A program made the position numbers and the translations under genes. The notes beneath the pieces are model-generated. The model worked only from the letters and a program-made list of their open reading frames with translations. It was not told where the DNA came from and searched no databases. A DNA stretch of 64,000 bases, taken from assembly GCF_041468085.1 (NCBI RefSeq), contig NZ_CP121017.1, positions 2,483,676-2,547,675 on the forward strand. The letters are read 5' to 3'. Of this stretch, positions 41,651 through 50,470 are shown piece after piece; the first letter of the stretch is position 1, and each line of letters begins with the position of its first letter. This DNA comes from Tistrella mobilis. Lineage in GTDB: Bacteria > Pseudomonadota > Alphaproteobacteria > Tistrellales > Tistrellaceae.

Positions 41651-41944
41651 ATGCCCCGTTCCGAAGCCCGCGTGGCCACCCGGCTCGGCCAGCGCTACAT
41701 GACCCTGCTCTGCCGGCATTTCCGCCACAAAGTGCCGGCAGAGGTCACCGGCGACACCGCCCGTGCCGATTTCCCCTGGGGGGCGATTGCCGAGATGGCG
41801 GCAACCCCCGAGCAGTTGCGGGTGACCTGCACGGCCGGCAGCCCGGCGGATCTTGTCCGTACCCAGGACGTGATCGCCATCCACCTCGCCCGCTTCGCCT
41901 TCCGCGACAGGCCGGAAATCAGCTGGCAACCGCTCGCCGACTGA
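41651..41944 (+). CDS. DUF2218 domain protein
   Basis: A 97-residue cytoplasmic protein of the DUF2218 family. Marks are ARVATRLGQRYMTLLCRHFRHKVP and RTQDVIAIHLARFAFRD, with a C-terminal tryptophan segment. DUF2218 genes are often found beside siderophore receptors and iron-reductase genes, so a role in iron release or handling is often supposed but not proven. It lies 32 bp after the receptor with AAGGAGG ten bases before the start, so it is very likely cotranscribed. Its stop abuts the alkB stop on the other strand. Confidence 0.85.
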   Translation: MPRSEARVATRLGQRYMTLLCRHFRHKVPAEVTGDTARADFPWGAIAEMAATPEQLRVTCTAGSPADLVRTQDVIAIHLARFAFRDRPEISWQPLAD

Positions 41945-42595
41945 TCAGCGCCCGCCGCCGGCGTGCCGGAAGGTGATGTTGATCCGTCGCCGACCGGTCG
42001 CCGGGTGAAACCCGTCGCGCAGCTCCTTCACCCCGTGATGGGCGAGCCGCCAGGCACCACCCCAGACCACGACATCGCCATGGACCAGTTCCATGTTGGT
42101 AACGGGGTCCTTGCGCGACGGGCCGCCGAACTGGAACACCGCCGGCAGGCCGAGCGAGACCGAGACGATCGGCCAGGTCAGGTCGCCCTCGTCGCGGTCC
42201 TGATGCATGCCGAGCCGGGCGCCGGGGGTGTAGAGATTGATCAGGCAGGCATCGGGCCGGAAGCCCGGAAAGCCCGCCGCCACCGCAGCCCGGTCGGCGA
42301 GGTCGCGGAAGAGTGCCGGCATCTCGGGCCAGGGGTGGCCGCTCTCGGGGTCGATCGGATCATAGCGATAGCCGCGCCGGTCCGAGACCCAGCCGAGCCG
42401 GCCGCAATTGGTCATGGCCACCGACATCCGGCGGCCGCCCGGCGTCAGCAGATGGCGGAAGGGCGCTGCTGCGGTGATGGTGTCGACCGCCTGCAACAGC
42501 TCCGTCGCAATCGGCAGGGCAAAGCCGTCGAGCAGAAACGCGCCCGGCGCGCTTCCCCGCGGCAGATCGTCGAAGAGCAGGCCGTTGGCGGACAT
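41945..42595 (-). CDS. alkB: alpha-ketoglutarate-dependent dioxygenase AlkB
   Basis: A 216-residue Fe(II)/2-oxoglutarate dioxygenase that removes alkyl groups from DNA or RNA bases. The iron ligands are in LGMHQDRDE and AHHGVKEL, and the 2-oxoglutarate arginines in RRRINITFR near the C-terminus. MSVAMTNCGRLGW and INLYTPGARLGMHQD are typical of bacterial AlkB. It is the last gene of the minus-strand DNA-repair run, 17 bp after a second 2OG oxygenase gene. The full length is close to E. coli AlkB (216 residues). Confidence 0.93.
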   Translation of the reverse strand: MSANGLLFDDLPRGSAPGAFLLDGFALPIATELLQAVDTITAAAPFRHLLTPGGRRMSVAMTNCGRLGWVSDRRGYRYDPIDPESGHPWPEMPALFRDLADRAAVAAGFPGFRPDACLINLYTPGARLGMHQDRDEGDLTWPIVSVSLGLPAVFQFGGPSRKDPVTNMELVHGDVVVWGGAWRLAHHGVKELRDGFHPATGRRRINITFRHAGGGR

Positions 42596-42612
42596 GAGGC
42601 CATTCCTCTCCG

Positions 42613-43326
42613 TCAGGCGGCATCGTGGAAGATGATGCCCAGCGTCCGCCGCCGGCCGCTGCGCACGGTTGCCACACCATGGCGCATCGTGACGCGATAA
42701 TCGCCGCGCGAGCCCCTGACCGGCCGCTGGTTGACCGCGAAGATGACCGCATCGCCCTGCCCCAGAGGCACCACCTCGGGCCGTGACTGCATGCGCGGGC
42801 GCTGTTCGGTCAGCACGAACTCGCCGCCGGTGAAGTCCCGGCCGGGTGCAGAGAGCAGAACCGCGATCTGCAATGGGAAGACGTGCTCCCCATAGAGATC
42901 CTGGTGCAGACAGTTGTAGTCCCCGGGGCCGTAATCGAGCAGCAGCGGCGTCGGCCGCATCTGACCGGCCTGGTGACAGCGGGCGATGAAATCGCTGTGG
43001 GTGTCGGGGAAGCGGACATCCAGGCCCATCCGCTGGTGCCAGCCATGGGCGATGGGCACAAGATGCGGCCAGGCCGCCTCACGCAGGGAGGCGACCACTT
43101 TCGGCAGCGGGCGGGCGAAATATTTGTAGCGGCCCTGCCCGAAACCGTGCCGGGCCATGATCACCTCAGAACGGAAGCCCTCTGCCCGCTCATAGAGCCC
43201 GGCCAGCTCCGTGCAGGTCGGCTCGTCGAGCAGCCCCGGCAGCAGTGCCTGGCCGCCTGCATCCAGCGCGGCGGCAATGGCCGTCCAGTCGGTCGCGTTC
43301 AACCGGGCTGTGGGATCATGCTGCAT
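42613..43326 (-). CDS. 2OG-Fe(II) oxygenase family protein
   Basis: A 237-residue dioxygenase. The iron ligands are His-x-Asp in YNCLHQDLYGEHVFPLQ and a distal histidine in TMRHGVATV. RYKYFARPLP and LLDYGPGDYN are the other recognisable stretches. Its target is unknown, but members of this group are often next to alkylation-repair genes, as here with alkB. The start ATG 43326 is chosen for its AGAGG six bases upstream; a GTG at 43398 and an ATG at 43374 are in frame. It lies 92 bp after pyk. Confidence 0.82.
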   Translation of the reverse strand: MQHDPTARLNATDWTAIAAALDAGGQALLPGLLDEPTCTELAGLYERAEGFRSEVIMARHGFGQGRYKYFARPLPKVVASLREAAWPHLVPIAHGWHQRMGLDVRFPDTHSDFIARCHQAGQMRPTPLLLDYGPGDYNCLHQDLYGEHVFPLQIAVLLSAPGRDFTGGEFVLTEQRPRMQSRPEVVPLGQGDAVIFAVNQRPVRGSRGDYRVTMRHGVATVRSGRRRTLGIIFHDAA

Positions 43327-43418
43327 GGGGGGCCTCTCATGCGGGTCGGGTGGAGAAAGACGGGGCCGGATCATGCGGTTCCGTCCCGTCTCCTGCACCT
43401 CGCGACCGGACGGAGAAG

Positions 43419-44846
43419 TCAGTTTCCGTCCGCGCGGACCACCCGGATGTTGTTGGTCGACCCCGCCTGACCAAAGGGAATACCGGCAACAACCACCACC
43501 GGATCGGCAGGGCCGGCCAGTTCCTGTTCCCTTACCGTGCGGGTCGCCTTTTCCACCATTTCCTCGTAGGAATGGATCTCTTCCGAGAGCACGCTATGCG
43601 CCCCCCAGAGCAGGCAGAGCCGGCGCGAGACCGACAGATTGGGGGTGGTCGCCAGGATCTGCGCGGCCGGACGGCGGCGGGCGATACGGGCCGCGGTCGT
43701 GCCGCTGGAGGTGAAGGCGACCAGCGCCGGTGCCCCCAACGCCACGGCGAGATCCGCGGCGGCGGCGGCCACCGCATGCGGCGCGCTGGTTTCTTCCCGC
43801 GGGCCCGAGGCATCGACGATGCTGCGATAGAATTTGTGCTGCTCGGTGCGACGGATGATCCGGTCCATCATCTCCACCGCCTCGACCGGATACTGACCGG
43901 CGGCCGATTCGGCCGAAAGCATCACCGCATCCGCCCCGTCATAGATCGCCGTCGCCACATCGGACGCTTCGGCGCGGGTCGGCGTCGGAGCGGCGACCAT
44001 CGAATCGAGCATCTGCGTCGCCACGATCACCGGCTTGGCGGCGAAGCGGCAGGCGCGCACCAGCTCCTTCTGCCGGCCCGGCACATCCTCGGGCGGAATC
44101 TCCACACCCAGATCGCCCCGGGCGACCATCACCGCATCGGCGAGCGCCACGATCTCGTCGACATGGTCCAGCGCCGAGGGCTTTTCGACCTTGGCAACCA
44201 GCCCTGCCCGATCGCCGATCAGCCCGCGCGCCTCCAGCAGATCGCCCGGCCGCTGTACGAAAGAGAGCGCCACCCAGTCGACCCCCAGCTCCAGCCCGAA
44301 GGCCAGATCGGTGCGGTCCTTGGGCGTCAGCGGCGACATGTCGAGCACGGTGCCGGGCAGGTTCACGCCCTTGCGGTTGGAGATCACGCCGCCGATCTCC
44401 ACCTCGGCATCGATGTGGTCGTCACCGAGGCCGGTGACCCGCAGCCGGACCCGGCCGTCATCGATCAGCAGATGATGGCCCGGCAGCACCGCCGCAAAGA
44501 TTTCGGGATGCGGCAGAGGAATCGCCTCAGCTCCGCCATCACTGCCTTTCAGCACGAAGCGCAGCGCCTGGCCCGGTGTCACCTCGATCCGACCGTCACG
44601 GATGGTGCCGACCCGGATCTTGGGGCCCTGAAGGTCCTGCAGGATGCCGATAGGCCGGTGATGCTTCTCTTCCAGCGCCCGGATGGCGGCATGGACCCGG
44701 GCGTGGTCGTCATGGCTGCCATGGCTGAAATTCAGCCGGAAGGTATCCACCCCGGCGCGGAACAGCGCCTCGAGCATGGCCGGGTCCGCACTTGCGGGCC
44801 CGACGGTTGCGACGATCTTGGCGCGACGCTTGCGGCGCATGATCAC
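43419..44846 (-). CDS. pyk: pyruvate kinase
   Basis: A 475-residue enzyme that transfers phosphate from phosphoenolpyruvate to ADP. It shows RRAKIVATVGPAS at the N-terminus, then FRLNFSHG, ILQDLQGPKIRVG, the catalytic lysine in LVAKVEKPSALDHVDEI, VMVARGDLGVEIP, and the signature region PVIVATQMLDSM. The C-terminal domain ends in STNNIRVVRADG. The start overlaps the stop of the upstream DUF4130-type gene as ATGA, so translation is coupled to a DNA-repair gene. No separate promoter is obvious. Confidence 0.95.
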   Translation of the reverse strand: MIMRRKRRAKIVATVGPASADPAMLEALFRAGVDTFRLNFSHGSHDDHARVHAAIRALEEKHHRPIGILQDLQGPKIRVGTIRDGRIEVTPGQALRFVLKGSDGGAEAIPLPHPEIFAAVLPGHHLLIDDGRVRLRVTGLGDDHIDAEVEIGGVISNRKGVNLPGTVLDMSPLTPKDRTDLAFGLELGVDWVALSFVQRPGDLLEARGLIGDRAGLVAKVEKPSALDHVDEIVALADAVMVARGDLGVEIPPEDVPGRQKELVRACRFAAKPVIVATQMLDSMVAAPTPTRAEASDVATAIYDGADAVMLSAESAAGQYPVEAVEMMDRIIRRTEQHKFYRSIVDASGPREETSAPHAVAAAAADLAVALGAPALVAFTSSGTTAARIARRRPAAQILATTPNLSVSRRLCLLWGAHSVLSEEIHSYEEMVEKATRTVREQELAGPADPVVVVAGIPFGQAGSTNNIRVVRADGN

Positions 44847-45802
44847 GAACGGCCCCGGGGGCCGCCTCCCTTGTCATGACTGGGGCCGCCGGGGGCGGCC
44901 ATGGGATCGGCAAGCATGGGCTGCGCCGGTCCCGGTTGCAAGTCTCCCGGTGAGGGGCCGTCGCGCGCGCCCGTCTTCACCCGCCGGGCCGCAAGACGGT
45001 GATGAAAGGCCGGTGCCGGGCGCCCGGCCGTTTCGGTCATGCCCCGCACCCGCGCCTCCGCCCCGGCGATCAGCTCTGGGATCAGGGCGGCTTCGGGCAG
45101 GTTCGCCCAGTACTTCACCGGCATTTCCGCACGCATCGCCCTGGGCTTCAGCCGGGCCGGATTGAAGATGCCGGCGTAATAGGTCAGCCACAGCGCCTCG
45201 GTTTCGTCGGCCAGATCCGGGCGCGTGGCGGGTTCGGCCGAGACCGTCAGCGTGGTGCCGTCGAAAGCGGCACTGCCGCGTGGCGTCAGGATCATCCAGT
45301 CCATATCGGCAAAGCGGCCCCGGAAGAAGGGGGCGGTGCGGGCAACGACGTAGTGATCGGGCTCGAACCAGGCGACGAAGCGCCGCCGGCCGGTCGGGCC
45401 CGGTGGCCCCGCCTCGCGGAACCGCACGAAAGCGGTCATCTTATGGGCATCGCGTCGCACCGCCTTCTCCAGCCTCGCCGTTGCGACGACATCCGGATCG
45501 GTGCGCTGTCCAAGCAGCTGCCGATCCTGCACCAGGCGCCAGAGCAGACGGTAGAGCAGCCCGAAACGGACCGGATCGGCATGGCAGATCACCGACCGGG
45601 CAAGGGTGAGGAACCCCGCCGGTACGCCCGGTGCCACGGCGCCGGGGGCCGGATCAGGAAGGGGCGGCGGCGGGTCGAACAGCTGCGCCTCGCCTGCCGG
45701 TTCCCAGGCCACATATTCGGGCGGCACCCCGGCCATCAGCAGGGCCCGTGCAGCCCGCCGCCATTCCTCGAAATCCCCCCGTCCGGCCAATGCGACCCGC
45801 AT
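44843..45802 (-). CDS. TIGR03915/DUF4130-type DNA metabolism protein without a UDG domain
   Basis: A 319-residue protein of the family that accompanies the TIGR03916 radical SAM protein. Recognisable parts are RLLWRLVQDRQLLGQRTDPDV, the DAHKMTAFVRFRE segment, WFEPDHYVVARTAPFF and LWLTYYAGIFNPARLKPRAM, and MPVKYWANLPEA. In many bacteria this domain is fused to a UdgX-type uracil-DNA glycosylase. Here the C-terminus is instead a short proline/glycine-rich tail, so the glycosylase part is absent. It starts 14 bp after the radical SAM gene and overlaps pyk by four bases. Its biochemical role is not established. Confidence 0.85.
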   Translation of the reverse strand: MRVALAGRGDFEEWRRAARALLMAGVPPEYVAWEPAGEAQLFDPPPPLPDPAPGAVAPGVPAGFLTLARSVICHADPVRFGLLYRLLWRLVQDRQLLGQRTDPDVVATARLEKAVRRDAHKMTAFVRFREAGPPGPTGRRRFVAWFEPDHYVVARTAPFFRGRFADMDWMILTPRGSAAFDGTTLTVSAEPATRPDLADETEALWLTYYAGIFNPARLKPRAMRAEMPVKYWANLPEAALIPELIAGAEARVRGMTETAGRPAPAFHHRLAARRVKTGARDGPSPGDLQPGPAQPMLADPMAAPGGPSHDKGGGPRGRS

Positions 45803-45816
45803 GTGCCCCTCCCGGT

Positions 45817-47046
45817 TCAGAACAACGCCAGCTGTGCCGGTGGCGCCACCAGCGTCCGCAGATCCTCGCGATCGATCAGCCTGAGCGGCGTCCAGCCCCG
45901 GGCGGTGACGAAGGGTTTCACCTTGGGGAGCGACACGCGCAACCGCCCCAGATCATCGAGCCCCAGCCGGCGATGGCGCCGGGCGGAGAGGATCGCGCCC
46001 ACCGTCTTCACGCCGAAGCCCGGTACCCGGAGCAGCATCTCCCGCGGGGCCTGGTTGACATCGACCGGGAAGAGCTGGCGGTTGGCCAGCGCCCAGGCGA
46101 GCTTGGGATCGATCTCCAGATCCAGCATGCCATCCGGCCGGCCGGCAGTGATCTCCCCCGGCGCGAAACCATAGAAACGGAACAGCCAGTCGGCCTGATA
46201 GAGCCGATGCTCCCGTTCCAGTGGCGGACGGACCGGCGGCAGCCGGCGCGACGCCTCGGGGATCGGGCTGAAGGCCGAGTAGTAGACCCGCCGCAGCCCA
46301 TAGGCATCGTAGAGGCCCCCGGCCGTGCCCAGAATCTCCGCATCGCTGGTCTCGCAGGCACCGACGATCATCTGGGTCGACTGGCCGGCGGGGGAGAAAC
46401 GGCGCCGCTTGCGGGTGCGCAGGGTCGGCTCGGCCCCCTCTTCGATCCGGGACCGGATCTCACCCATCGCCTGGCGGATCTCCCGCGGCCGTTTCTCGGG
46501 CGCCAGCTCGGCCAGGCCGCGCTCTGTCGGCAGTTCGACATTGATCGACAGCCGGTCGGCGAACAGCCCTGCCTCCGCAATCAGCTCCGGCGCGGCATCT
46601 GGGATGGTCTTCAGATGGATGTAGCCCCGGAAGCCGTGGGTCAGCCTCAGCTCACGCGCCACCCGAACCAGCTCGGCCATGGTGTGATCGGGGGAGCGGA
46701 TGATGCCCGACGACAGGAACAGCCCTTCGATGTAGTTGCGCCGATAGAATTCCAGCGTCAGCCAGACCACCTCTTCGGGCGTGAACCGCGCCCGGGCGAC
46801 ATTGCTGGAGGAGCGGTTGATGCAATAGGCGCAGTCATAGATGCAGAAATTGGTCAGCAGGATCTTGAGCAGGGAAATGCAGCGCCCATCCGGCGCATAG
46901 GCATGGCAGATTCCCATTCCGGTGGTGGAACCGAGGCCGCCCGTCGCCGCGGAATCGCGCCGGCCGCCGCCACTCGATGCGCAGGAGGCATCGTATTTGG
47001 CGGCGTCGGACAGAATGGCCAGGCGGTCTTTCAGCGACATCTTCAT
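45817..47046 (-). CDS. putative DNA modification/repair radical SAM protein (TIGR03916 type)
   Basis: A 409-residue radical SAM protein. The cluster-binding cysteines are in NFCIYDCAYC (residues 68-75, CX3CX2C). Further family stretches are LKILLTNFC, LSSGIIRSPDHTMAELVRVAREL, GYIHLKTIPDA and STQMIVGACETSD. A helix-hairpin-helix near residue 340 (LLRVPGFGVKTVGAIL) suggests DNA contact. The start ATG 47046 is four bases from a LexA box; ATG 47040 is an alternative. It heads the run with the DUF4130-type gene and pyk. The reaction is unknown; a DNA-repair role is inferred from the HhH motif and SOS-type promoter. Confidence 0.88.
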   Translation of the reverse strand: MKMSLKDRLAILSDAAKYDASCASSGGGRRDSAATGGLGSTTGMGICHAYAPDGRCISLLKILLTNFCIYDCAYCINRSSSNVARARFTPEEVVWLTLEFYRRNYIEGLFLSSGIIRSPDHTMAELVRVARELRLTHGFRGYIHLKTIPDAAPELIAEAGLFADRLSINVELPTERGLAELAPEKRPREIRQAMGEIRSRIEEGAEPTLRTRKRRRFSPAGQSTQMIVGACETSDAEILGTAGGLYDAYGLRRVYYSAFSPIPEASRRLPPVRPPLEREHRLYQADWLFRFYGFAPGEITAGRPDGMLDLEIDPKLAWALANRQLFPVDVNQAPREMLLRVPGFGVKTVGAILSARRHRRLGLDDLGRLRVSLPKVKPFVTARGWTPLRLIDREDLRTLVAPPAQLALF

Positions 47047-47050
47047 AGAT

Positions 47051-47082
47051 GTTCACTATATGTTCGGAAGACGGCCGGTCAA
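47051..47082 (-). promoter_or_regulatory. promoter with overlapping LexA (SOS) box
   Basis: On the plus strand 47051-47065 reads GTTCACTATATGTTC, an exact GTTC-N7-GTTC direct repeat, the known LexA site of alphaproteobacteria. On the minus strand TTGACC (47082-47077) and TATAGT (47060-47055) are 16 bp apart, so the LexA box covers the -10. Transcription would start near 47048, almost at the ATG of the radical SAM gene. Confidence 0.8.
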
Positions 47083-48041
47083 GGCCCCGCCTCTGCCTCT
47101 CCGCTGCGCCGCGCCACCTGCTGCCGCCAGGCCTCGGGCGTCTGCGGCTTCACATAGAGGGCCACAACCTGAGGATGGTCTGCGGTGAGCGCCGCCTCCA
47201 GCCGTTCGATACAGGCCTCGATGGCGGTGGTGGTGGTCATGTCCTCGAACTCGGCGCTCAGCGCCACCACCACCTGTTCCGGCGCCAGATGAACGGTGAC
47301 CACGCCGTTCACCGCCCCGACCACGGGATCGGCATGGGCACGTTCGATGATCGCGGCCTGCAACGCCGGTGCAGCCCGTTCCCCGATCAGCAGCCCCATG
47401 CTCTCCCGCGCCAGAACAACTGCGGTCGCCGCCAGAACCAGACCGATGCCGATGGAGGCGGCACCATCCAGCTCCGGCATCTTCAGCAGATCGGCGGCAA
47501 GGATGCCGGCAGCCGCGATGACGATGCCAAGCAGGGCTGCGGTGTCTTCCAGCAATACGGTGAACACCGTCGGATCCTTGCTGCGCCTTATCGCGGACAG
47601 CCAGCCGAGATCGCCCTTCCGGGCGCGGAACTCCAGCAGGGCCACGCGCCAGGACCAGCCTTCGAAAAGGAAGGCCAGCCCCAGCACCACATAGCTGACG
47701 GTCAGGTTCCCGGCCGGTTCCGGCGCCAGTACATGGCGGATGCCTTCATAAAGCGAGACCCCCGCCCCCAGGGCAAAGACCAGCAGCGCGACCACGAAGC
47801 TCCAGAAATAGAGTTCGCGGCCATAGCCCAGCGGGTGGATCTCGTCCGGCGGCCGGGACGATCGGCTGAGGCCGAGGAGGAGGAGCAGTTCATTGCAGGT
47901 ATCGACCAGCGAATGCACCCCCTCGCTCAGCATGGCGGAGCTGCCGGTATGAAGTGCGGCGGCGAATTTCGTCACCGCGATCGCCAGATTGCCGGCGAGT
48001 GCCGCATGGATCGTCCGTCTGGTTCCGGCACGCGCCGTCAT
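47079..48041 (-). CDS. cation diffusion facilitator family transporter
   Basis: A 320-residue inner-membrane metal exporter of the CDF family. About six hydrophobic segments lie in residues 10-215. The metal-site motifs are LSEGVHSLVDTCNE in helix 2 and LLEDTAALLGI in helix 5, with HPLGYGRELYFWSF between helices 2 and 3 as in the FieF/ZT branch. A cytoplasmic domain (HADPVVGAVNGVVTVHLAPEQVVV) closes the protein. The replacement of the usual second histidine-aspartate set by E/D makes the metal uncertain. It lies 11 bp after gcd on the same strand; its stop is only 14 bp upstream of the LexA box, within the -35 region of the next promoter. Confidence 0.88.
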   Translation of the reverse strand: MTARAGTRRTIHAALAGNLAIAVTKFAAALHTGSSAMLSEGVHSLVDTCNELLLLLGLSRSSRPPDEIHPLGYGRELYFWSFVVALLVFALGAGVSLYEGIRHVLAPEPAGNLTVSYVVLGLAFLFEGWSWRVALLEFRARKGDLGWLSAIRRSKDPTVFTVLLEDTAALLGIVIAAAGILAADLLKMPELDGAASIGIGLVLAATAVVLARESMGLLIGERAAPALQAAIIERAHADPVVGAVNGVVTVHLAPEQVVVALSAEFEDMTTTTAIEACIERLEAALTADHPQVVALYVKPQTPEAWRQQVARRSGEAEAGP

Positions 48042-48052
48042 TCCAGATCCTT

Positions 48053-50470
48053 TCAGCCCTCGGGCAGCGCATAGGCGATCAGTTCATCGCCGATCGGCGT
48101 TTCCATGAAGTGATGCCCGCCGGCCATGATCACCAGATACTGGCGGCCATCGATCTCGTAGGTCATCGGCGTCGCCTGACCGCCGGCCGGCAGCACATCG
48201 GACCAGACCGTTTCGCCGGTCTCGATGTCGATGGCCCGGATCAGGTTGTCGGTGGCTGCGGCGATGAACACCAGCCCGCCTGCGGTCACCACGGCGCCGC
48301 CGTTATTGGGCGTGCCGATGTCGACCGGCAGCATGGAAGGGATGCCGAACGGGCCGTTGGTACGTGCCTGACCGAAGGGCCGGTCCCACAGCGTCTCGCC
48401 GGTTTCCATGTCGATCGCCCGGATACCGCCATAGGGTGGCTCCTTGCAGAGCAGCAGGGTGACCGGCAGCCGCCAGCCGGCATTGACATTGATGGCGTAG
48501 GGGGCGCCCATCTGCGGATCGCCGGCACCTTCCTGGCCGCCGAACTCGCCCCGATCCTCGCTCCGCGGCGCCCAGCCCAGCCGTTCCGCCTCCTCACGCG
48601 GGACCAGGCGATTGTGGTTCGGCATGTCGTTGTAATTGGCGATGATCACCCCGCGGCTGGGATCCACGGCGATGCCGCCCCAGTCGGACCCGCCGTTATA
48701 GCCCGGATACTCCACCCAATGGGTGTCGGTGGCAGGCGGGGTGTAGAAGCCCTTGTAACTCGCCTGACGATACTGGATGCGGCAGATCATCTGATCGATC
48801 GGCGACATCCCCCACATCTTCGCCTCGGTCAGATCCTCGCGGCGCAGCGTGTGGTAGAGCGAGAAAGGCTGGGTGGCCGACCTTTCGTCGGGCTCTACGC
48901 CGCCCTGCGGAACCGGCCGTTCCTCGACACCGGTGATCGGCCGGCCGGTACGGCGGTCGAGCACATACATGTCGCCCTGCTTGCTGGGCAGGATCAACGC
49001 CGGCACCGGTCCCTCGCCCGTCGGAAAATCGACCAGCGTGGCCTGCGAGCCCAGGTCGTAATCCCAGACATCCTTGTGCACGGTCTGGAACGACCAGGCA
49101 GGGCGGCCGGTGTTGACGTCGATCGCGACCAGCGAAGTGGAATAGCGGTTCTCCGCCTCCGATCGGTCGCTGCTCCAGTAATCGACGGCCGAATTGCCCA
49201 TCGGCAGATAGACCAGCCCCAGCTCCTCGTCACCGGATGCCGTGGTCCACATATTGGGGGTGCCGCGGGTATAGGTCTCGCCCTCGGGCGGCAGGCCGGT
49301 GATATCGGGGCGGACCATGTCCCAGGCCCAGCGCAGCTCGCCGGTGACGGCGTCATAGGCCTGTATCACGCCCGAGGGGGCATCCCGCTTCTGGCCGTCC
49401 AGCACCTGGTGGCCGGTGACGATCACCCCCTGCACGATCACCGGCGGCGAGGTGATCGATACCATCCCCGGCACCACCGGCCCCATGCCCTGCTTGATGT
49501 CGACGGCGCCATTTTCGCCGAAGCCGACGCAGGGCGCGCCCGTGCGGGCATCCACCGCCAGAATACGGCCGTCCAGCGTCCCCTCGATGATCCGGGTCGC
49601 GCAGATCTCTGCGGCCGACGCGTCAGGCACCTGGTAATAGCTGACCCCACGGCAGGCGGCGGTATAGGGAATGAAGCGATCCTCGACGCCCGGATCGTGA
49701 CGCCAGCGCTCCTCGCCACTCTCGGCATCGAGCGCGATCAGGATGTTCTTGGCCGAGCACAGATAGAGCATGTCGTCGATCTTGAGCGGCGTGGTCTCGG
49801 CGCCATAGGACCCTTCGGCCGCTTCGCTCGGCAGGTCGCGGGTGTGATAGACCCAGGCCCGTTCCAGCCCCTCGACATTGGCAGGCGTGATCTGGTCGAG
49901 CGGCGACCAGCGGCGGGCGGCATAGGTGCCGCCATAGGCCGGCCAGTCGGCCCCGGTGTCGCGCAATGACGGATCACTCATCTCCAACCGGCCCGGAGGC
50001 GGCAGGCTGGCCAGCTGCCGGTCGGGCGTGCTCTGGACCACGACGACGCCAACCAGCACCGCCACCACGATCAGCACCACGACGCCGGCCACGGCACCGC
50101 TCGCATGCAGGCGGACCGGGCGGAGCATGGGGGCGAGCGCCACCATGATCAGCAGCAGCACCAGCGGCCCGACCAGCCGCGGGACCAGTGCCCAGCCATT
50201 CATCCCGACCTCCCAGAAGGCCCAGAGCAGAGTGGCCGTGAAAACCGCCGCATAGACCCAGAAGCCGGACCAGCGCCGCACGGCCAGCAGACCGCCGGAG
50301 ATGATCAGGCCAAGCCCGGCCGGCAGGTAGTAGGCCGAGCCGCCGAGCGCCAGCAGCCAGCAGCCGCCGATGGCGAGCACCAGGCCGATCAGTACCAGCA
50401 CGGCGGCCAGGATCCACAGCGCCCAGGGACGACGCCTCCGTTCGGGGGCGGGAACGGTTCCGTCGGACAT
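48053..50470 (-). CDS. gcd: membrane-bound PQQ-dependent dehydrogenase, glucose type
   Basis: An 805-residue quinoprotein that oxidises glucose (or a related polyol) in the periplasm and passes electrons to ubiquinone. Five hydrophobic segments fill residues 15-150. A PQQ beta-propeller follows, with DWPAYGGTYAARRWSPLDQI, LIALDAESGEERWRHDP, TVHKDVWDYDLGSQ, GGSDWGGIAVDP and MTYEIDGRQYLVIMAGG. The quinate/shikimate dehydrogenases share this architecture, so the substrate is not certain. No pqq biosynthesis genes are in the window. The start at 50470 (MSDGTVPAPE) is followed by a basic stretch. Confidence 0.92.
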   Translation of the reverse strand: MSDGTVPAPERRRRPWALWILAAVLVLIGLVLAIGGCWLLALGGSAYYLPAGLGLIISGGLLAVRRWSGFWVYAAVFTATLLWAFWEVGMNGWALVPRLVGPLVLLLIMVALAPMLRPVRLHASGAVAGVVVLIVVAVLVGVVVVQSTPDRQLASLPPPGRLEMSDPSLRDTGADWPAYGGTYAARRWSPLDQITPANVEGLERAWVYHTRDLPSEAAEGSYGAETTPLKIDDMLYLCSAKNILIALDAESGEERWRHDPGVEDRFIPYTAACRGVSYYQVPDASAAEICATRIIEGTLDGRILAVDARTGAPCVGFGENGAVDIKQGMGPVVPGMVSITSPPVIVQGVIVTGHQVLDGQKRDAPSGVIQAYDAVTGELRWAWDMVRPDITGLPPEGETYTRGTPNMWTTASGDEELGLVYLPMGNSAVDYWSSDRSEAENRYSTSLVAIDVNTGRPAWSFQTVHKDVWDYDLGSQATLVDFPTGEGPVPALILPSKQGDMYVLDRRTGRPITGVEERPVPQGGVEPDERSATQPFSLYHTLRREDLTEAKMWGMSPIDQMICRIQYRQASYKGFYTPPATDTHWVEYPGYNGGSDWGGIAVDPSRGVIIANYNDMPNHNRLVPREEAERLGWAPRSEDRGEFGGQEGAGDPQMGAPYAINVNAGWRLPVTLLLCKEPPYGGIRAIDMETGETLWDRPFGQARTNGPFGIPSMLPVDIGTPNNGGAVVTAGGLVFIAAATDNLIRAIDIETGETVWSDVLPAGGQATPMTYEIDGRQYLVIMAGGHHFMETPIGDELIAYALPEG

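Follow-up and report, generated by a model that had tools for sequence, protein, structure and literature searches.

The radical SAM gene that begins at position 47046 of the analysed window (the whole 64-kb stretch of Tistrella mobilis DNA, to which all coordinates below refer unless another genome position is given) is very probably transcribed from a LexA-repressed SOS promoter. This reading is based on a -35/-10 pair, TTGACC/TATAGT, which is overlapped by an exact GTTC-N7-GTTC repeat directly upstream of the gene. In undamaged cells, LexA sitting on the repeat across the -10 would block RNA polymerase. RecA filaments would then trigger LexA self-cleavage and free the promoter, and the polymerase would start only a few bases from the ATG, giving an mRNA with almost no leader. 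Such an mRNA would code for both TIGR03916 and TIGR03915; in this genus it may extend to the genes for pyruvate kinase, an Oxygenase-NA protein and AlkB. From sequence and comparison with relatives we infer LexA binding, induction, the exact start, leaderless translation and the extent of the transcript.

The predicted LexA operator, a sequence match on the plus strand (47051..47065), reads GTTCACTATATGTTC; its form on the coding (minus) strand is GAACATATAGTGAAC, i.e., GAAC-N7-GAAC. The -10 hexamer TATAGT (47060-47055, minus strand) lies wholly inside this box, and the -35 hexamer TTGACC (47082-47077, minus strand) is separated from it by a spacer of 16 nt, the commonest spacer in relatives being 17. 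All these elements were found where the preliminary description had placed them. The pair is the only sigma-70-like match on either strand between 41700 and 48200, where 0.5 would be expected. The box is separated from the ATG by 4 nt and the -10 by 8 nt; with a start 6–8 nt past the -10, the leader would be about 1–3 nt long. The arithmetic behind the earlier suggestion of a nearly leaderless mRNA is thus correct. Both this geometry and the box-to-start distances of relatives point to a transcription start at 47046..47049 (minus strand), 0–3 nt before the A of the ATG.

The gene itself (45817..47046, minus strand) encodes a 409-aa radical SAM protein of the TIGR03916 (rSAM_link_UDG) family, with 562.3 bits against a cut-off of 343.5; a second in-frame ATG is located at 47040. 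It is followed by a gene for a 319-aa TIGR03915/DUF4130 partner of the short kind (44843..45802, minus strand; 203.9 bits against 112.25; PF13566). Both proteins score above the curated cut-offs, which bears out the identity given to the radical SAM gene beforehand. TIGR03916 was the only NCBIfam family among the matches listed for the first protein (E 0.001), and the three cysteines of its CxxxCxxC motif (C68, C72, C75) are invariant in 32 sequences. The structural model of this protein (mean pLDDT 74.5, with residues 19–50 and 402–409 below 50) contains a radical SAM core. Its best VIA-align match was lipoyl synthase (Z 16.4, rmsd 3.0, 219 aligned residues), a top place that stands among many tied rows. 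Spore photoproduct lyase was absent among the matches listed in the two structure comparisons of this model (50 each). A PDB sequence search gave weak matches (best E 0.025) to radical SAM proteins and to ComEA/RuvA-type proteins, the latter being helix-hairpin-helix proteins.

TIGR03915 lies directly downstream of TIGR03916 in 155 of 157 loci (an exact duplicate included), the other two being cut by the locus end. In 93 of the 155, the start rule used makes the two genes overlap by 1 or 4 nt. Where its length was readable, the partner had at least 400 aa in 96/114 alphaproteobacterial and 7/25 other loci. Five relatives' partners were scanned: the three long ones were fusions with TIGR03914 (UdgX), and the two short ones had no TIGR03914. 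The fused domain of the relatives gave strong UdgX matches in the PDB sequence search. No UdgX domain was found on the 319-aa partner in the window, for which TIGR03915 was the sole NCBIfam match; its model (mean pLDDT 83.7) matched nothing in the PDB by Foldseek at E ≤0.001, the best value being 0.024. These associations, together with a prediction in the available part of PMC3765255, suggest that the pair may act in uracil- or base-linked repair.

A single exact box is close to chance expectation in 64 kb, so its significance has to be taken from a comparison with relatives. For this purpose, 126 distinct alphaproteobacterial TIGR03916 loci were assembled from three sources, minus one exact duplicate. 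The first was the best 80 of 590 confirmed stretches in genome_contigs, of which 79 are alphaproteobacterial by their record titles and one (L078) is from Xanthomonas. The second comprised 24 loci above the family cut-off in a 385-genome sample of the class, from which 16 weaker matches had been dropped, and the third 24 more loci of the class among the matches listed for a 398-genome sample of the phylum. The 130 nt preceding the conserved N-terminal motif contain an exact GTTC-N7-GTTC in 122 of these 126 loci, which are phylogenetically non-independent and include the window's own genome and two others of its genus. In the same loci, spacings of 3–6 and 8–11 yielded 0–2 matches each, the reversed pattern 4, and seven other 130-nt windows 0–2. 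L219, counted among the four exceptions, carries its exact box slightly further out, at -132. No exact box was found within 250 nt upstream in the remaining three (L012, L073, L085), but L012 and L073 carry boxes with one mismatch and L085 has two mismatches at best. Conservation of the operator at orthologous genes and its overlap with the promoter, both marks of the alphaproteobacterial LexA regulon, are found together at this locus.

The position of the box relative to the promoter and the start codon also recurs. The box is oriented as in the window in 108 of the alphaproteobacterial loci and oppositely in 14. Among the 108, the first base of a TTG stands 18 nt before the box in 36 loci, 17 nt in 13 and 16 nt in 15 (64/108 in total), and at any other offset from 40 to 6 nt before it in at most 9 loci each. 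The -10 position within the box reads TA...T in 47, TA.... in 35 and otherwise in 26. In 49 of the 108 loci, the start codon lies exactly 2 nt past the box. Over all 122 loci with a box, this distance is ≤7 nt in 92, 8–13 nt in 5 and ≥14 nt in 25, with start codons assigned by a rule (the most upstream ATG after the box) that favours short distances. In our judgement, a peak as sharp as the one at 2 nt is hard to produce by the start-codon rule alone. Judged by sequence, the putative leaderless geometry is conserved among the alphaproteobacterial relatives, and for the gene at ATG 47046 a near-leaderless mRNA, with the predicted leader of a few nucleotides, would be the product.

The main competing possibility accepts LexA control and supposes that the main mRNA has a normal leader, produced either by read-through from the upstream transporter gene or from a start further upstream. 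We consider this unlikely, although it is the best of the alternatives. The transporter, a cation diffusion facilitator (47079..48041, minus strand; TIGR01297, 118.3 bits against 82.35), is encoded immediately upstream on the same strand, its stop codon falls within the -35 TTGACC, and no terminator-like site was found in 46900–47300. However, the transporter was not found in the flanks (up to 3 kb) of the best 80 of 590 loci, so read-through from it would be at most a local matter.

The relatives give evidence on both sides of this question. A Shine-Dalgarno-like motif stands between box and start in only 1 of the 92 loci with a close start (≤7 nt), as opposed to 14 of the 30 loci whose start is at least 8 nt from the box. 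If a Shine-Dalgarno-like 4-mer is sought 5–20 nt upstream of the start regardless of the box, it occurs in 18/92 close-start loci and 13/30 others; the 18 motifs of the close-start loci are nearly always in or before the box. Since 30 of 122 starts are at least 8 nt away from the box and 18 of 92 close starts have such a 4-mer, leaderless translation would not be universal in the class. For the window's gene, the conserved geometry is the ground on which a near-leaderless form is predicted.

Outside the class, a different operator is found at the same place. We examined 30 such loci: 29 from other classes of Pseudomonadota, all above the cut-off, and that of Xanthomonas dyei (L078). Judging from the type of box and the Xanthomonas name, they are probably mostly Gammaproteobacteria in the GTDB sense. 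The alphaproteobacterial box was found in 0/30 within 130 nt upstream. Instead, the E. coli-type CTGT-N8-ACAG was present within this distance in exact form in 19/30 and with one mismatch in 5/30; it was seen in 0/126 alphaproteobacterial loci within the same distance. Controls in the 30 loci (spacings 4–7 and 9–12, the reversed pattern and six other windows) all gave 0. Altogether, a box typical of the clade, exact or with one mismatch, lies within 130 nt in 124/126 alphaproteobacterial and 24/30 outside-class loci.

Neither the alphaproteobacterial box nor a CTGT box with up to one mismatch was found in the remaining 6 of the 30 (L078, L203, L232, L244, L251 and L255). Three of these, L232, L244 and L255, belong to one family and have a TCTCAT-N3-ATGAGA palindrome at the position of the LexA box, once per genome; no such palindrome was found in the genome of L078. 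This suggests that another regulator may occupy the spot in other lineages.

A few further records were looked at, too few to draw conclusions from: Parabacteroides, Subdoligranulum, Fusobacterium, an Acinetobacter record and a gut phage scaffold. In these five, which come from other phyla or carry a phage label, no box of the alphaproteobacterial or CTGT type was found within 250 nt upstream. The gut phage scaffold (L265, MT835514.1) has the sequence AAC-N4-GTTC 40 nt before the start of the TIGR03916 match, in partial agreement with the Gram-positive LexA (Cheo) box. The 240-kb record labelled "Acinetobacter phage" (L264, CAKLQH020000003.1) has glyS and glyQ beside TIGR03916 and looks like a bacterial chromosome. 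A GGA-N5-TCC sequence, described as a Bacteroidetes motif in the accessible part of PMC8565304, occurs in Parabacteroides (-211) and in the gut scaffold (-209); it is short enough for such matches to arise by chance.

The genome of T. mobilis possesses an SOS system to which the promoter could belong. It has a single lexA (one PF01726 match; TIGR00498, 172.3 bits against 110.95), which encodes a LexA of 285 aa (L001). Two exact boxes are located at the 5′ end of dinB (521.9 bits; G000:C4:713189-713226, L142), the start of which is uncertain, and another exact box precedes the ATG of a PA0069-family radical SAM gene by 15 nt (461.1 bits; G000:C4:586304, L139). The regulon is not a textbook one, since no exact GTTC-N7-GTTC was found at the lexA locus and recA has only a one-mismatch box upstream, GAAC-N7-GTAC. 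The SOS reading of the window's promoter is supported by the alphaproteobacterial form of its box, the single lexA, the orthologous loci, the boxes at dinB and the PA0069-family gene and a further exact box ahead of a probable imuA, as well as by the E. coli-type site in most outside-class loci and an independent statement in PMC8565304.

The same observations bear on the idea that a regulator other than LexA reads the repeat. The palindrome that replaces the LexA box in L232, L244 and L255 speaks for it, but the repeat in the window has the exact alphaproteobacterial form with its 7-nt spacing, which is also found at dinB in this genome, and most outside-class loci have an E. coli-type LexA box at this place. 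We therefore regard a different regulator as very improbable.

As for the number of such boxes, the window contains 2 exact GTTC-N7-GTTC sites against 0.88 expected, a count that is reached in 20 of 100 shuffles. The second one, at 47706-47720, falls inside the gene of the transporter, and its spacer is rich in GC; because of this position and spacer we set it aside as a LexA site and consider it a probable chance match. Boxes with one mismatch number 43 in the window against 33.7 expected. In the whole genome (6.3 Mb) there are 98 exact boxes versus 40 matches to the reversed pattern, which implies that many of the exact ones are due to chance.

To rank these 98 boxes we used a scoring matrix trained on 119 orthologous TIGR03916 sites, with the genus left out; it replaced a GC3 rule for downstream genes, which was too crude. 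The site at 47051-47065 ranks first, a rank biased by the origin of the matrix in orthologous TIGR03916 sites. The second-ranked box had been considered to stand directly before imuA. This assignment is weakened, as the possible starts of the probable imuA (74.8 bits, below the 150-bit cut-off) lie 93–600 nt beyond the exact box. Other high-scoring boxes are near a PEP mutase-like gene and a multicopper oxidase.

That the box before TIGR03916 is a chance match, with the gene expressed constitutively from TTGACC/TATAGT, would agree with these window and genome counts, but we reject it as highly implausible in view of the exact box in 122/126 alphaproteobacterial loci with controls near zero and of the CTGT-N8-ACAG that stands in its place in 19/30 outside-class loci.

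The promoter might serve more than two genes. The transporter, TIGR03916 and TIGR03915 genes belong to a co-directional run on the minus strand (41945-48041) that continues with pyk, Oxygenase-NA and alkB. The pyruvate kinase gene pyk (43419..44846, minus strand) overlaps the end of TIGR03915 and perhaps belongs to the same transcript. It is followed by a gene for Oxygenase-NA (PF09859; 42613..43326, minus strand, with ATG 43326 chosen by eye), a predicted oxidative DNA-repair enzyme, and by alkB, which encodes a DNA oxidative demethylase (41945..42595, minus strand; NF011930, 324.8 bits against 267). No convincing terminator was found in 41700-48200, where terminator-like matches numbered 3 against 2.2 expected and two of these are close to where pyk ends.

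In the window scan, no exact LexA box was found at alkB or Oxygenase-NA, and none of the one-mismatch boxes lies directly before either gene. The gene order from the transporter to alkB is identical in the three genomes of the genus examined (the window's own, G033 and G162). A tblastn search (1e-10) found none of the transporter, pyk, Oxygenase-NA and alkB in the flanks (up to 3 kb) of the best 80 of 590 loci. We hypothesise that alkB is under SOS control in this genus.

We take COG4277 to be the same family as TIGR03916, with which its pairing with a UDG-family protein fits, and presume that the Caulobacter gene concerned in the SOS link is CC2333. According to the available part of PMC8565304, a COG1573-COG4277 operon is predicted to be under SOS control in Bacteroidetes, and SOS regulation of this UDG-based repair system had been reported before in Verrucomicrobia and Alphaproteobacteria. 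Four UDG-family genes are listed in PMC1839093, CC2333 among them. The operon of Bacteroidetes and Verrucomicrobia described in those parts of PMC8565304 likewise consists of two genes, one of them of the UDG family, and is attributed to SOS control; in contrast, the partner in the window has no UDG domain, and the LexA motifs differ.

Alphaproteobacterial SOS regulons, as described in the accessible portions of PMC8565304 and, for Caulobacter, of PMC12700426, share with our locus the GTTC-N7-GTTC operator and a DNA-repair target, whereas the tight register of box, -10 and start is absent from these descriptions. A similar case is splB, the spore photoproduct lyase homologue (COG1533 in the available part of PMC8565304). 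It is also a radical SAM-type repair gene with LexA sites, in alpha- and betaproteobacteria, but it is of a different family from TIGR03916. PMC3323433 describes how splB keeps its LexA link under changed LexA motifs, an argument of the same kind as ours.

In the open PubMed Central literature, as far as its texts were accessible, we found neither the leaderless register nor CTGT-type boxes described for TIGR03916. Nothing was found there on a connection between UdgX and LexA, and a mention in a figure legend was all that we found for TIGR03916, TIGR03915 or DUF4130. The available parts of PMC6120978, PMC12907096, PMC13384398 and PMC7739468 have nothing on the TIGR03916/TIGR03915 pair.

The preliminary description had also presented the promoter as linking a poorly understood gene pair to the SOS response. 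The orthologous loci support this link as an inference, and the claim to novelty holds at most for this organism, given that the connection has already been reported for related bacteria in the literature cited above. In broad terms, the promoter adds one more case to a regulon already described, and its design is conserved. Possibly new are the breadth of the link, the locked register of box, -10 and start, and the genus-specific gene run that ends in alkB.

Taken together, these observations allow a broader reading, which we offer tentatively and hold to be doubtful as a whole. TIGR03916/TIGR03915(-UdgX) might be a core SOS module across Pseudomonadota, the operator of which was rebuilt when the specificity of LexA changed. 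In Alphaproteobacteria, box, -10 and start would share a fixed register spanning about 20 nt, with a leaderless mRNA as the outcome of derepression, and this genus would have brought alkB and a second oxidative DNA-repair enzyme under SOS control. If this is true, the leaderless mRNA would be a built-in means of favouring translation of repair enzymes under damage.

The locus would offer an example of a regulatory link that is kept while the binding site of the repressor differs completely between classes. The promoter, possibly leaderless and mitomycin-inducible, would be easy to assay. For the family, it provides a testable case for assigning an uncharacterised radical SAM enzyme, together with the DUF4130 protein paired with it, to the SOS response in most of the sampled loci, and such membership points to the kind of lesion work for which TIGR03916 and TIGR03915 may be tested.
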